DNA of 32,157 nucleotides, taken from Bacteroidota bacterium. Its GTDB lineage: Bacteria; Bacteroidota; Bacteroidia; Sphingobacteriales; Sphingobacteriaceae. The stretch spans positions 65-32,221 of the forward strand of contig JABDBW010000026.1 of NCBI GenBank assembly GCA_013288485.1, read 5' to 3'. This document shows, piece after piece, positions 1,993 through 5,133 of this stretch (position 1 is its first letter; each line of letters opens with the position of its first letter). A program made the translations under genes and the position numbers. The notes under the pieces are model-generated. The model made no database searches. It was not told where the DNA came from and saw only the letters and a program-made list of their open reading frames with translations.

Positions 1993-3420
1993 TTAGTTCG
2001 GGGTATAAAAACCCGTTTTTCCGGGGTCGTGGAGCATATCGCTCATTTCAATTATCTTTTCATCAATTTCCGATACGCATTTATCCATCATTTTTATGCA
2101 TTCCTCCTTATCAACAAGTCCTTCCTTTTCCAGGTTCATTAAACCTTTAAGTGTAGCTATAGGGCCGCGTATCTGGTGTGATAAATAAGATGAGTATTCT
2201 GAAAGTTTTTTATTCTTAACCTGCAGGTCCTTCGTACGTTCGTCAATGATCTCTTCAAGGTGGTGGTTAATGCGGTCGAGGTTATCTTTTTGCCTTGATA
2301 TTTCACTATTCAATTCATGGAGCTGCGCGTTAGTGGTTGCTTTGCGCCTTACATTGTTTATTAATAATCCAATAACTGCCAATAACAGGATGGCCATTAT
2401 CATCAGCGCTCCAAATATTTTGCTGTTAAATTCTCTTCTTTGTTTGTCCACCGCGTCTTGTATGATCCGGTCAGTTTCTTTTTGTTTCAGGGTTAACTTG
2501 GTGGAAACCGTTGATTTATAAGCTGTGCTATCTGATTGATAAATTTTAATTAAAATGTTTAAAGCCTTTTCGTAATTCTTTTTCTTTAATTCTAATTCAT
2601 AAGCTATGTGATTGTAATCACTAATATCTTTATCATTTTTACTCAGGGCAGCATAGCTTTTACCCTCTTCCATGTATGTCCCGGCCTTATCAAAATTACT
2701 TTCTGCTATATAAATATCAGTAAGGTTCATGTCGATAGTGGCTATTGACGAATTCATATCCATATTTTTAGCCCGGTCATGGGCGTCTGTCAGCAACATC
2801 TTCGCAGTATCTATCTCATGTAAATTAAAGTAAATAACCCCCAGATTTTGCAGGCATTGCACCAGGATGGTAGGGTTTTTTAATTCCGTAAAAAGCCGGA
2901 AACTCTCTTTATAGGATTTCTTTGCTTCGGGGTATCTATTTTGGCGATTATAAATGTTGCCCATGTTTAAATACAGCTTCGCAATTAATTCTTTGTCTTT
3001 ATATTTTACTGCAATATCGTTTGCCAGTTTAAAATAATCTAAAGCCTTATCATAATCTATCATCTGGTAAAGGTTACCAATATTGTTGTAAACAGTACCC
3101 ATACCCCGCTCGTCATTCAGGTTTTTAAAATGATCTAAAGCCTGGAAATAAAGAGTTATCGCCGTGTCCGGGCGATTTAAATAGAATTCGCCAACACCCA
3201 TTACCCTGTAAGCTTCGGCTATACCGCTATTATATTTAAGTTTAACAGCTAATTGTAATGCTTTGTTAGCATCGGTAACGGTTTCATTAGCGTTAGTAAA
3301 CCGGGCTTTAAACCCGTTAGCATTTAATCTTTTAACCTCGGTTGTATCTGTGCCCCTACCCTGGCCGTGTGCGGTTATTGAAGTTATTATAAAAAAAAGA
3401 ATTGCGTAAATTTTCTTCAT
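1993..3420 (-). CDS. Periplasmic TPR sensor with DHp-like domain but no kinase ATPase domain
   Basis: Protein of 475 residues from the ATG at 3420; the longer frame to 3543 adds an implausible Lys/Phe-rich stretch ahead of a clear signal peptide (MKKIYAILFFIITSITAHG). Residues about 25-300 are TPR-like helical repeats (for example GMGTVYNNIGNLYQMIDYDKAL), predicted periplasmic. A membrane helix spans about 335-354, followed by a coiled coil (about 365-405) and a DHp-type H-box, YLSHQIRGPIATLKGLMNL, with His415. The protein stops about 60 residues later: there is no N, G1, F or G2 box, so no CA/ATPase domain, and the sequence after the stop does not supply one. It therefore cannot autophosphorylate alone; it may be phosphorylated in trans, act on a response regulator, or signal by conformation. 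It is divergent from the exported-peptide cluster at 3807-5133, whose products would share the compartment of its TPR domain. Confidence 0.8.
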   Translation of the reverse strand: MKKIYAILFFIITSITAHGQGRGTDTTEVKRLNANGFKARFTNANETVTDANKALQLAVKLKYNSGIAEAYRVMGVGEFYLNRPDTAITLYFQALDHFKNLNDERGMGTVYNNIGNLYQMIDYDKALDYFKLANDIAVKYKDKELIAKLYLNMGNIYNRQNRYPEAKKSYKESFRLFTELKNPTILVQCLQNLGVIYFNLHEIDTAKMLLTDAHDRAKNMDMNSSIATIDMNLTDIYIAESNFDKAGTYMEEGKSYAALSKNDKDISDYNHIAYELELKKKNYEKALNILIKIYQSDSTAYKSTVSTKLTLKQKETDRIIQDAVDKQRREFNSKIFGALMIMAILLLAVIGLLINNVRRKATTNAQLHELNSEISRQKDNLDRINHHLEEIIDERTKDLQVKNKKLSEYSSYLSHQIRGPIATLKGLMNLEKEGLVDKEECIKMMDKCVSEIDEKIIEMSDMLHDPGKTGFYTPN

Positions 3421-3806
3421 CAAAAAGTTATTACGTTTAATTATGGTGAAAGTTATAAATATTACGCTATATATTTTCTTTTCCGCAAAAAAATGATTTT
3501 TTTTAATAAAAAAACTTTTTTTGTTTTTCTTTGTAATTAACAAAACATAATTATATTTGTCTTGTATAAGTATTTGAATATCAAATGCGTATAATTACTA
3601 ATTTATAACATTAATATTTATTAAACAATTAAATTTATACCAAGAGATTAAAAAAAAACAGGCAGAAAACTATTAATTAATCAGCGAAAAAGAATGACAC
3701 CTTTATTAAGGTACAACTTAAAAGTATGTTATTATAATTAACTAATAATTAATATTTGTCAATAAAAAGATATTAAATTTATTACTAACTTAAAAAATTA
3801 AATATA
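3421..3806. other. AT-rich divergent intergenic region
   Basis: 386 bases between the TPR sensor (minus) and the first peptide gene (plus). Very AT-rich, with poly-A and poly-T runs around 3483-3530. It holds the plus-strand promoter candidate at 3530-3559 and no credible coding frame; the short frame at 3694 (MTPLLRYNLKVCYYN) lacks support. Confidence 0.6.
3530..3559 (+). promoter_or_regulatory. Bacteroidota-type promoter candidate for the peptide cluster
   Basis: TTTG at 3530-3533, an 18-base spacer and TATATTTG at 3552-3559 match the Bacteroidota -33/-7 consensus (TTTG, TAnnTTTG). Transcription would begin near 3566 and give a leader of about 240 bases before the first peptide gene. A short hairpin ACCTT-TATT-AAGGT lies in that leader at 3699-3712. 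No comparable promoter is seen between the five peptide genes, which fits one transcript. Confidence 0.5.
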
Positions 3807-3953
3807 ATGAAAAATCTAACTTTAGCAGTAATTGTCGTACTCTTTACAGTTGTACTATCATCATGCACAAAAAAGAGCAATATCCAGGCAAATTCAGCGG
3901 CCTTTACTAACAACCCGTTTTCGGCAAAAGGCACACTGGCAACTGCTGATTGA
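3807..3953 (+). CDS. Small exported lipopeptide ending in LATAD (48 aa)
   Basis: A 48-residue frame too short for usual gene callers. It begins MKNLTLAVIVVLFTVVLSSC, a lipoprotein signal with lipobox LSSC and acceptor Cys20. A short polar mature part follows and ends exactly in GTLATAD before TGA. The C-terminal TAD matches the four genes downstream, which is the main argument that it is real. It is first in the cluster after the promoter candidate at 3530-3559. The function is unknown; a peptide signal or small envelope lipoprotein are both possible. No known family was recognised. Confidence 0.7.
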   Translation: MKNLTLAVIVVLFTVVLSSCTKKSNIQANSAAFTNNPFSAKGTLATAD

Positions 3954-4034
3954 ATTATAGCGTAACTTATAATATACTAATTAATCATTACCTAATACTT
4001 TATATCTATTATCTAACATTTAAAAAATAACAAT

Positions 4035-4181
4035 ATGAAAAAGATAATCCTTACCACAGTTATTGTATTTACAGTTGGAATATTATCCATATTAAATACC
4101 ACAAACAACACTAAAACAACTTCAGTAAAAGTTGCTAAGGTTGCAGTAAATGATAGAATTGTATTAGCTACGGCTGATTAA
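4035..4181 (+). CDS. Small exported peptide ending in LATAD (48 aa)
   Basis: Another 48-residue frame, 81 bases after the previous one and of identical length. It begins MKKIILTTVIVFTVGILSIL, a basic-hydrophobic export signal or membrane anchor without a lipobox, followed by a Thr/Asn/Lys/Val-rich segment and the C-terminus IVLATAD. The last five residues are identical to those of the preceding peptide although the middle parts are unrelated, as expected if only the C-terminus is functional. No terminator is seen on either side, so co-transcription with its neighbours is likely. Unrecognised family. Confidence 0.7.
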   Translation: MKKIILTTVIVFTVGILSILNTTNNTKTTSVKVAKVAVNDRIVLATAD

Positions 4182-4258
4182 AAATAATAACAAAAAATAA
4201 ATAACATAATAATAAACAACCCTAATTAATTTAATAATACCAGAACAAATAAATAACC

Positions 4259-4579
4259 ATGAAAAAACTAATAATCGCATCAGCCATTGTATTCGCTACC
4301 AGCATCGCTTCATCTTTTGCTAAAACCAACAGTTTAGTAGTGTCTTACCAAACCATTGATAAAGACAAAGACAACCAGGGTACCGCTGACAGAAAAGGTG
4401 ATAAAGATAATTTAGGTACTGCCGACAGAAAAGGTGATAAAGATAATTTAGGTACTGCTGACAGAAAAGGTGACAAAGATAATTTAGGTACTGCCGATAG
4501 AAAAGGTGACAAAGACAACTTAGGTACTGCCGACAGAAAAGGTGATAAAGATAACTTAGGCACTGCCGACAGATTCTAA
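4259..4579 (+). CDS. Exported repeat peptide precursor, six copies of a GTADR unit
   Basis: Protein of 106 residues. Residues 1-21 (MKKLIIASAIVFATSIASSF, then A) form a Sec signal peptide with an AxA-like end. After a short linker come six units: a first imperfect one (DKDNQGTADRK) and five of 12 residues, GDKDNLGTADRK, the last ending DRF (residues 35-106). Units differ mainly at synonymous third positions (GATAAAGATAATTTA versus GACAAAGACAACTTA), showing selection on the peptide. Arg-Lys lies at each junction, so proteolysis at basic residues would release multiple LGTAD-containing peptides. The signal peptide is almost identical to that of the gene at 4631, indicating a recent duplication. 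No known family was recognised; a disordered, Asp-rich cation-binding envelope protein is an alternative. Confidence 0.85.
   Translation: MKKLIIASAIVFATSIASSFAKTNSLVVSYQTIDKDKDNQGTADRKGDKDNLGTADRKGDKDNLGTADRKGDKDNLGTADRKGDKDNLGTADRKGDKDNLGTADRF
4361..4576 (+). repeat. In-frame 36-bp tandem repeat, six units
   Basis: Six consecutive units encoding (G)DKDNLGTADRK; the period is 36 bases. Copies vary mainly at third codon positions; the first copy has Gln in place of Leu. The repeat lies wholly inside the coding frame. Confidence 0.9.
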
Positions 4580-4630
4580 TTAAAAAAGCAACAAAAACGT
4601 AAATAATAAATAAAAAACTATAAAAAAATC

Positions 4631-4933
4631 ATGAAAAAACTAATAATCGCATCAGCCATAGTGTTCGCTACCAGCATCGCTTCATCTTTCGCTACAACCA
4701 GCAGCAATTTAGCAGCCACTTACAAGATGGATAAAGACAACTTGGGTACTGCTGACAGAAAAGACAAAGACAACCTGGGTACTGCTGACAGAAAAGATAA
4801 AGACAACCTGGGTACTGCTGACAGAAAAGACAAAGACAATTTAGGTACTGCTGACAGAAAAGACAAAGATAACTTGGGTACTGCTGACAGAAAAGGCGAT
4901 AAAGATAACTTAGGTACTGCCGACAGATTCTAA
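4631..4933 (+). CDS. Exported repeat peptide precursor, second paralogue
   Basis: Protein of 100 residues, 51 bases after its paralogue. Residues 1-21 are the same signal peptide. After a linker (TTSSNLAATYKM) come five 11-residue units DKDNLGTADRK (residues 34-88) and a sixth with an extra Gly, ending DRF (89-100). The period is 33 bases instead of 36 because the Gly codon is missing in five units, so the two arrays have evolved separately while keeping LGTADR intact. Basic Arg-Lys pairs again separate the units. It has the same genomic context and the same uncertain role as the gene at 4259. Confidence 0.85.
   Translation: MKKLIIASAIVFATSIASSFATTSSNLAATYKMDKDNLGTADRKDKDNLGTADRKDKDNLGTADRKDKDNLGTADRKDKDNLGTADRKGDKDNLGTADRF
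4730..4930 (+). repeat. In-frame 33-bp tandem repeat, six units
   Basis: Five 33-base units and a final 36-base unit encoding DKDNLGTADRK/F, inside the gene at 4631-4933. Homologous to the array at 4361-4576 but with a different period. Confidence 0.9.
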
Positions 4934-4968
4934 TTAAAGAACACTCATCACATTTAAAAATTAAGAAC

Positions 4969-5133
4969 ATGAAAAAAATAGCCATAATAGCAGGAATAAT
5001 TTTAACTACAGGATTAACTGCATTGTCAGTAAGTAAAAAAGAAAACAAGACTGCTGACGTAAAAGTTAAATTTGAAAACACTAATTCAGCAAACAAAGCC
5101 GGCGCTGGTATGAATTTAGGTACTGCTGACTAA
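4969..5133 (+). CDS. Small exported peptide ending in NLGTAD (54 aa)
   Basis: A 54-residue frame starting 35 bases after the second repeat precursor. It begins MKKIAIIAGIILTTGLTALS, a signal or anchor segment, then a Lys/Asn-rich segment and the C-terminus GAGMNLGTAD before TAA. The last six residues equal the core of the repeat unit (NLGTAD) in the two preceding proteins, linking the single-copy and multi-copy genes. An internal KTAD (residues 27-30) is also present. It closes the cluster; after it there is a 374-base gap. Unrecognised family; likely the same role as the other four. Confidence 0.75.
   Translation: MKKIAIIAGIILTTGLTALSVSKKENKTADVKVKFENTNSANKAGAGMNLGTAD

Follow-up and report, generated by a model that had tools for sequence, protein, structure and literature searches.

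Tagged small exported proteins as candidate ligands of an envelope TPR receptor in Mucilaginibacter and related genera

What is the function of small exported proteins that share a short terminal motif and are encoded next to a membrane-bound tetratricopeptide repeat (TPR) protein? The question is raised by a stretch of 32,157 nt (the whole stretch analysed, here called the window) from a Bacteroidota bacterium (assembly GCA_013288485.1, contig JABDBW010000026.1, most of which it covers). The genome is incomplete (62% complete), and its genus-mates are Mucilaginibacter, family Sphingobacteriaceae. In the window, five small plus-strand genes (3807-5133) share a motif, the tag, and diverge across a 386-bp spacer from the gene of a putative receptor with a TPR ectodomain and a DHp hairpin (Table 1). 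Our favoured explanation is that the tag peptides are probably ligands of this envelope TPR receptor, i.e. that both form a peptide-receptor module with a logic like that of the RRNPP systems, without being a member of that group.

The small genes would encode exported or lipidated precursors, and the functional unit would be the C-terminal or repeated tag ([K]DNLGTAD or LATAD). The signal features seen are consistent with export by the Sec pathway, probably followed by trimming at the cell surface or in the periplasm. The divergent receptor may hold the tag, including the terminal Asp, in the concave groove of its periplasmic TPR domain, and binding would rearrange the dimer of transmembrane (TM) helices and coiled coils and thus act on the cytoplasmic DHp hairpin. 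This hairpin would most likely exchange phosphoryl groups with partner proteins or control a partner kinase. Gene amplification and tandem repeats would raise the peptide dose. A sequence-only reading of the window had proposed the peptides as ligands of the TPR sensor. Comparative genomics strongly supports the pairing and the tail as the conserved unit, and the ligand role itself is a prediction.

Pairing of the receptor with small secreted genes

Close orthologues of the receptor (E < 1e-90) are present in 58 of the 61 Mucilaginibacter genomes, and the three genomes lacking one are 58-71% complete. At E 1e-60, matches were found in 105 of the 251 genomes of the family, representing 11 of its 25 genera (10 beyond Mucilaginibacter); three of these genomes (G148, G159, and G201) match only via a full-length kinase paralogue. 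In a sample of the order, the genomes among the matches listed all belong to the same family, which says little about a wider spread. In a class-wide sample, the matches outside the family were distant and mostly longer TPR sensors.

An array of small genes lies 5′ of the receptor in 52 of 56 Mucilaginibacter loci by pattern and in 54 by eye, counting loci with at least 700 bp upstream of the receptor, so that the module is nearly universal in the genus and extends well beyond the single locus first described. For the 42 loci of the 10 other genera, a small secreted or lipoprotein gene is found beside the receptor in 37 by pattern and in all by eye. L134-L137 and L140 of these have variant tails, and L134, with the tail GGGWGG, matched the tail pattern solely through an internal match; L041, L088, and L129 entered by eye. 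In a set of named loci, which overlaps the first set, an array is present in 72 of 75 by pattern and 75 of 75 by eye (75 of 80 loci had enough flank).

Arrays contain up to 11 small secreted genes by pattern (median 3 where found), with a median gap of 53 bp between consecutive precursor genes. Three or more motif copies are carried by 80 of 315 precursors, and some arrays consist of one huge precursor, e.g. 490 amino acids (aa) with 38 motif copies at L057. Upstream of the receptor, 304 kb of the expected strand contained 316 secreted small open reading frames (ORFs) with the tail pattern, compared with 15 on the opposite strand of that stretch; 1,338 kb of strand from other parts of the fetched loci contained 36.

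The same 251 genomes were searched with a profile of 26 lipopeptides (46 positions). The profile also matches generic lipoprotein N-termini in nearly every genome; the full-length matches were all in receptor-bearing genomes, among the matches listed (E to ~4e-9). In five receptor-bearing genomes (G061, G080, G114, G142, and G233), a full-length match is on a contig other than that of the receptor. The pattern D-x-[GA]-x-A-D-stop gave 117 matches in 33 of the 61 Mucilaginibacter genomes, and the reversed control gave 7. Judged by eye, as were the controls, 104 of the 117 are near the receptor, 6 at contig ends, and 7 elsewhere, so the wide occurrence of TAD-ending genes away from a TPR gene, which would have spoken against the sequence-only reading, was not seen. 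The window genome has no match to this pattern because its tags read NLGTAD and LATAD. Off-locus DIATAD matches were considered as additional peptide genes and rejected; the three that were opened (L149-L151) were all inside unrelated genes.

For comparison, 26 related TPR sensors (6 paralogues and 20 further loci) showed no neighbouring array; three of them (L143, L159, and L170) have <900 bp of upstream flank. No array was in view beside five TPR-DHp-like proteins of ~500 aa from two other families (L155-L159) and L171 (565 aa). These six are short TPR-DHp proteins of other families without an ATPase domain and with H-boxes such as NAHxLRAP and SHKVRGP; TPR sensors with only a DHp hairpin may thus be more widespread than this family.

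Across the family, UvrD, receptor, peptides, and M20 peptidase form a syntenic block in this order, with the M20 peptidase at 36 of 47 Mucilaginibacter loci and 38 of 39 other loci, and linkage alone is therefore weaker evidence for the ligand explanation than the counts suggest. The small genes could also be genomic hitchhikers, i.e. genes for envelope proteins of unrelated function in a conserved block beside the TPR gene. The family-wide UvrD and M20 flanks fit this alternative, as do the two Mucilaginibacter loci that lack an array despite enough flank, namely L091, with no M20 gene nearby, and L152, with receptor and M20 peptidase, and the missing coevolution signal in two tests (see below). 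In contrast, ten Mucilaginibacter loci without an M20 gene in the fetched flank (L048, L058, L059, L062, L069-L072, L075, and L077) keep receptor and array, and no receptor-less genome had a full-length peptide match among the matches listed. We regard hitchhiking as improbable. A role of the M20 peptidase as a dedicated processing enzyme found no support: it is a conserved neighbour of ordinary type, and 11 of the 47 genus loci show no copy of it in the flank fetched. Genome G003 (L090 and L091) has three receptor copies, two of them in tandem; the copy with enough flank, L091, showed no array.

The tag as the conserved unit

The sequence-only reading took TAD as the defining motif. This did not hold: TAD is a dialect of Mucilaginibacter, and the tags elsewhere usually end in an aromatic or small residue plus Asp, with few exceptions. 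Mucilaginibacter tags have GTAD, GSAD, GQAD, or GSGD at the C-terminus and mostly follow [KR]xD[LIV][GA][TSQN]AD, some species having GD instead. Tags in the other genera are GTWD, GGWD, QWD, GSYD, or GSFD, mostly ending in WD and in some cases in YD, FD, MD, or GD, so that a universal TAD tag was rejected. Four loci of genus g18 (L135-L137 and L140) end in TYEE, TYGE, or TYDE. Further dialects, TGSSD and GTVGGAD repeats, were noticed at L209, L251, and L192. The final Asp is invariant in the 26 lipopeptides of the profile, whose selection favoured it.

To rely on is a tail-blind test, in which small secreted ORFs were chosen by the N-terminus alone. The tag lies within the last 20 residues in 186 of 191 such ORFs in the genus and in 83 of 98 in other genera, and 8 of the 15 misses in the latter are L129 copies ending in TYGWD. 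For 200 pairs with dissimilar middles, identity was 0.68 in the last five residues vs. 0.12 in the middle, and tail identity was 0.64 without the final residue. Shuffling tails between loci, which does not preserve relatedness, gave 0.34 (maximum 0.40 over 500 shuffles) for all loci. The genus alone had 0.71 vs. 0.43 (maximum 0.51) after shuffling, and the other genera alone 0.51 vs. 0.31 (maximum 0.47). Unrelated precursors from a single locus are therefore much more alike at the tail than expected from shuffling. An earlier, tail-selected test gave 0.84 vs. 0.58 after shuffling and was not significant for other genera; its 0.84 is inflated, because the precursors had already been chosen by tail and for dissimilar middles. 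In the tail-selected set, the proportions of synonymous (pS) and nonsynonymous (pN) differences in tail codons were 0.68 and 0.14, respectively. The 12 repeat units of precursors 3 and 4 of the window have pS 0.54 vs. pN 0.02.

At L095 and L097, lipoprotein and non-lipoprotein precursors carry the same local aromatic residue (GSFD/ASFD and GSYD/ASYD, respectively). At some loci the tags are not concerted, which speaks against the ligand explanation: L087, L046, and L047 mix G and A, and at L121 and L125, W occurs together with M or Y. The tail-blind test strengthens the favoured explanation and the exceptions weaken it, leaving its odds as they were.

The precursors could also act as tethered co-regulators, i.e. 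stay uncut, as lipoproteins or in the periplasm, with their tails docked in the TPR groove, and report the state of the envelope or of lipoprotein export instead of cell density. A lipobox was found by pattern in 122 of 315 precursors and is followed in 96 of these by C-X-K-(D/E), which resembles the Bacteroidetes surface-export signal C-X-K-(D/E)2-X described in PMC5080379, although the strict C-X-K-(D/E)2 occurs in 30 only. Among the precursors listed for other genera, most are lipoproteins of ~45 aa. Structural proteins, too, contain repeats, a point that weakens the ligand explanation. Many arrays, however, also contain non-lipidated and tandem-repeat precursors, which resemble multi-copy peptide precursors, and we consider tethering unlikely.

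Small size, export, amplification, and species-specific cores would also suit antagonistic (bacteriocin-like) or post-translationally modified peptides, with the TPR protein as a self-sensor or immunity factor, and TPR-like genes have been noted in predicted Bacteroidales clusters for ribosomally synthesized and post-translationally modified peptides (RiPPs; PMC10352776). However, the recurrent neighbours listed, most of them unprofiled, include no recognised modification enzyme, exporter, or immunity gene, and PADLOC returned a generic TPR match only. This alternative appears very improbable.

The locus, the receptor ectodomain and the output

The coordinates of the features in the window are given in Table 1. 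All elements that the sequence-only reading had described were recovered: the five consecutive ORFs with export signals and a shared motif, three of them with the motif as the exact C-terminus and two with six xGTAD units each, and the divergent neighbour with signal peptide, TPR domain, one TM helix, and DHp without ATPase, the latter by Pfam, sequence, and model.

Table 1. Features of the peptide-receptor locus in the window
Feature	Position	Strand	Description
Receptor gene	1993-3420	minus	475 aa: signal peptide, TPR ectodomain, one TM helix, coiled coil, DHp without ATPase
DHp hairpin	2029-2208	minus	residues ~405-464
His415, phospho-acceptor type	codon 2176-2178	minus	SHQIRGP
TM segment	2350-2418	minus	residues ~335-357, then RRK (positive inside); read from sequence
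TPR ectodomain	2521-3348	minus	residues 25-300, seven A/B helix pairs (AlphaFold2 model)
R72, invariant	codon 3205-3207	minus	ectodomain alignment
Ectodomain Asn residues	residues 113, 152, 192	minus	ectodomain alignment
Promoter-like site	3530-3559	plus	Bacteroidota-type, TTTG-N18-TATATTTG, 5′ of the peptide array
Precursor 1	3807-3953	plus	48 aa, lipoprotein-type signal, C-terminus GTLATAD
Precursor 2	4035-4181	plus	48 aa, C-terminus IVLATAD
Precursor 3	4259-4579	plus	106 aa, six units (QGTAD, then five DNLGTAD), RK(G)DK spacers, ends RF
Precursor 4	4631-4933	plus	100 aa, six DNLGTAD units in RK(G)DK spacers, ends RF
Precursor 5	4969-5133	plus	54 aa, non-lipoprotein type, last in array, C-terminus MNLGTAD

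All five precursors have a basic n-region and a hydrophobic stretch at the N-terminus, as read from the sequence, and precursor 1 has the lipobox LSSC. The counterpart of precursor 5, as last gene of the array, ends in PKSDIATAD or similar in several relatives. AlphaFold predicted a repeat precursor alone as a single helix of low confidence, which is uninformative. The promoter-like site follows a consensus that we take to be that of Bacteroidota. TTTG-N16-23-TAnnTTTG occurs in the spacer of 22 of 89 arrays, compared with 2 of 89 each for the reversed control and the other strand.

The ATG at 3420 (475 aa, MKKIYAILFF...) is preferable as the receptor start to the TTG at 3543. Pfam searches with the longer ORF gave TPR_12 at 9e-22, HisKA with 20.8 bits (4e-4), under the cut-off of 26.9, and no HATPase. 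The best NCBIfam match was FimS (4.9e-24; 84.6 bits vs. a cut-off of 600). The AlphaFold2 model has a mean pLDDT of 88.4, and its long helix 283-416 includes the TM segment.

The sequence-only reading had also inferred an envelope analogue of the RRNPP systems, and the fold bears this out in so far as the ectodomain resembles peptide-bound RRNPP receptors, among other peptide-binding TPRs. Over residues ~17-311, the receptor model aligns with RapF-PhrF (Z 26.0), Phi3T Rap with pheromone (Z 24.6), RapJ-CSF (Z 24.5), and NprR-NprX (Z 23.4), and over residues 62-272 with PlcR-PapR (Z 19.8); a Foldseek search was also run with the model. Other peptide-binding TPRs are equally in the list, however. 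Residues ~17-311 also align with degron-bound APPBP2 (Z 28.1) and LGN complexes (Z ~23), and subunits of APC/C reach Z 23.5. The likeness is to peptide-binding TPRs in general and extends to APC/C subunits, which counts against the ligand explanation; a common fold by itself demonstrates no function. In a sequence search of solved structures, Rap and NprR matched no better than many other TPR proteins.

The A helices, which form the concave face, are more conserved than the B helices (0.625 vs. 0.551, one-sided p 0.006). R72 is present in 88 of 88 receptors, and six short outgroup proteins have Thr or Asn at this position; nearly all groups keep N113 and N152. In RapF, the peptide backbone is anchored by an Asn of the TPR groove (PMC3601957), a possible parallel to the receptor Asn residues. 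R72 and the Asn residues are also found in array-less paralogues (R72 in 6 of 6 g21 kinase paralogues), which counts against the ligand explanation; R72 is present as well in 4 of 4 receptors without an array in view.

The coevolution of tag and receptor found no support beyond phylogeny in two tests, and both weigh against the ligand explanation. In partial Mantel tests with 85 loci, the correlation of the tag with the ectodomain given the cytoplasmic part was r 0.07 (p 0.14), with helix A given the cytoplasmic part 0.09 (p 0.10), with helix B given the cytoplasmic part 0.03 (p 0.29), and with helix A given helix B 0.07 (p 0.16). The converse correlations were higher, i.e. 0.49 (p 0.0005) for the cytoplasmic part given the ectodomain and 0.18 (p 0.001) for helix B given helix A. 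In a column co-change test with only 13 tag changes on the tree, from which the mixed-tag loci L046, L047, L121, and L125 were dropped and in which many labels were hand-set, an excess at helix A was not clear.

His415 is present in 88 of 88 orthologues. At +1, 79 of the 88 have Q and 9 have E/D; at +4, all have G, S, or A and none has T/N. In the HisKA motif H-E/D-x-x-T/N, the acid is needed for kinase and T/N for phosphatase activity (PMC3510030), and canonical phosphatase activity of the receptor DHp is unlikely, judging from these residues. No HATPase match was obtained for four family receptors profiled, and the 105 orthologues with an H-box match have 54-77 residues between His and the C-terminus. 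The receptor would not be expected to phosphorylate itself, as it has no ATPase domain. As the His is invariant and the +1 position mostly not acidic, a relay or the regulation of a partner would be likelier.

In genus g21 (L143-L148), paralogues of the ectodomain are fused to a LytS-type histidine kinase. A response-regulator gene was read nearby in 4 of 6 loci (L144, L145, L146, and L148), and profiling of two kinases and two regulators gave His_kinase/HATPase and Response_reg/LytTR, respectively, so that such ectodomains can sit on a two-component system.

Two neighbours recur near the receptor in Mucilaginibacter, an XRE-type regulator with a coiled coil (1512-1883 in the window; 54 of 59 loci) and a 97-aa ORF (48 of 59 loci) not seen in the window. 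The XRE regulator was rejected as a core part of the module; neither it nor the 97-aa ORF was matched at 48 loci from the other genera, of which L117 is covered for no more than 1 kb on the XRE side. The block ACGTTTAATTATGGTGAAAGTTATAAATA (3431-3460), just 5′ of the receptor start, is kept in eight Mucilaginibacter spacers inspected and might serve the receptor mRNA as a leader or in regulation. The window had no match in Rfam.

Comparison with known systems

TPR-receptor peptide signalling has been catalogued in Firmicutes, and the ligands of periplasmic TPR sensors in Bacteroidota are an open question (FimS, PMC11053733). The RRNPP survey analysed, among bacteria, only complete Firmicutes genomes (PMC10075063). 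The open-licence literature in PubMed Central yielded no Bacteroidota TPR-receptor system with a tagged peptide array, which does not prove its absence. It is conceivable, with odds a little below even, that this is an envelope signalling system of the whole Sphingobacteriaceae, with Sec-exported, tandem-amplified pheromones whose terminal tags are species-specific, a membrane-anchored periplasmic TPR receptor, and catalytically stripped DHp relays acting by phosphotransfer. The candidate ligands adjoin the receptor in ~100 genomes and vary by species, so that binding, dialect specificity, and output are directly testable with short synthetic peptides.

The concave TPR surface of kinesin light chain reads a Trp-acidic tag (PMC6224480), and GTWD is common in the other genera; kinesin light chain is eukaryotic and cytosolic with an unrelated function, and the likeness is an analogy only. 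TPR-like genes in predicted Bacteroidales RiPP clusters have been suggested to act in regulation after pheromone binding. Unlike the present loci, those clusters carry modification enzymes and transporters, and the excerpts of PMC10352776 describe neither a tagged Sec-type array nor a TPR-DHp receptor.

With the RRNPP systems (Rap-Phr, NprR-NprX, and PlcR-PapR), the locus shares small exported precursors whose C-terminus is the conserved unit and an adjacent TPR receptor of <500 aa, and in the model its ectodomain aligns with peptide-bound RapF, RapJ, Rap3T, and NprR (Z 23-26, a likeness of fold only). Measured by criteria taken from PMC10075063, four precursors (48, 48, 100, and 54 aa) are in the range of 10-100 aa and one has 106 aa, compared with up to 490 aa for repeat precursors elsewhere. 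The n- and h-regions and lipobox expected for Sec export are predicted by pattern; the receptor (475 aa, TPR_12) is within 250-500 aa and has TPRs, and the genes are divergent neighbours. The RRNPP architecture, a cytoplasmic protein with C-terminal TPR and a helix-turn-helix (HTH) or Rap effector, is not that of the receptor. Size, TPRs, and neighbourhood agree and the architecture does not, and we therefore do not class the receptor as an RRNPP member. Behind a signal peptide, it has an N-terminal TPR domain on the outer side of the membrane, followed by a TM helix and a DHp, and it has neither an HTH nor the Rap three-helix effector. Its host is Gram-negative, and a locus can have as many as 11 precursor genes and a single precursor as many as 38 motif copies.

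The g21 TPR-LytS-type kinase with its LytTR regulator has an ectodomain of the same clade and signature (R72 in 6 of 6), but is a full kinase with another type of DHp and no adjacent array seen. FimS of Porphyromonas gingivalis likewise combines periplasmic TPR sensing with the framework of a membrane-bound histidine kinase; PMC11053733 describes the FimS signal as unknown. The receptor differs in that it has neither an HATPase domain nor the HisKA motif H-E/D-x-x-T/N, and in that it has a dedicated peptide array. If a family-wide signalling system of the kind outlined above exists, peptide recognition may be a general property of Bacteroidota TPR sensor kinases such as FimS.

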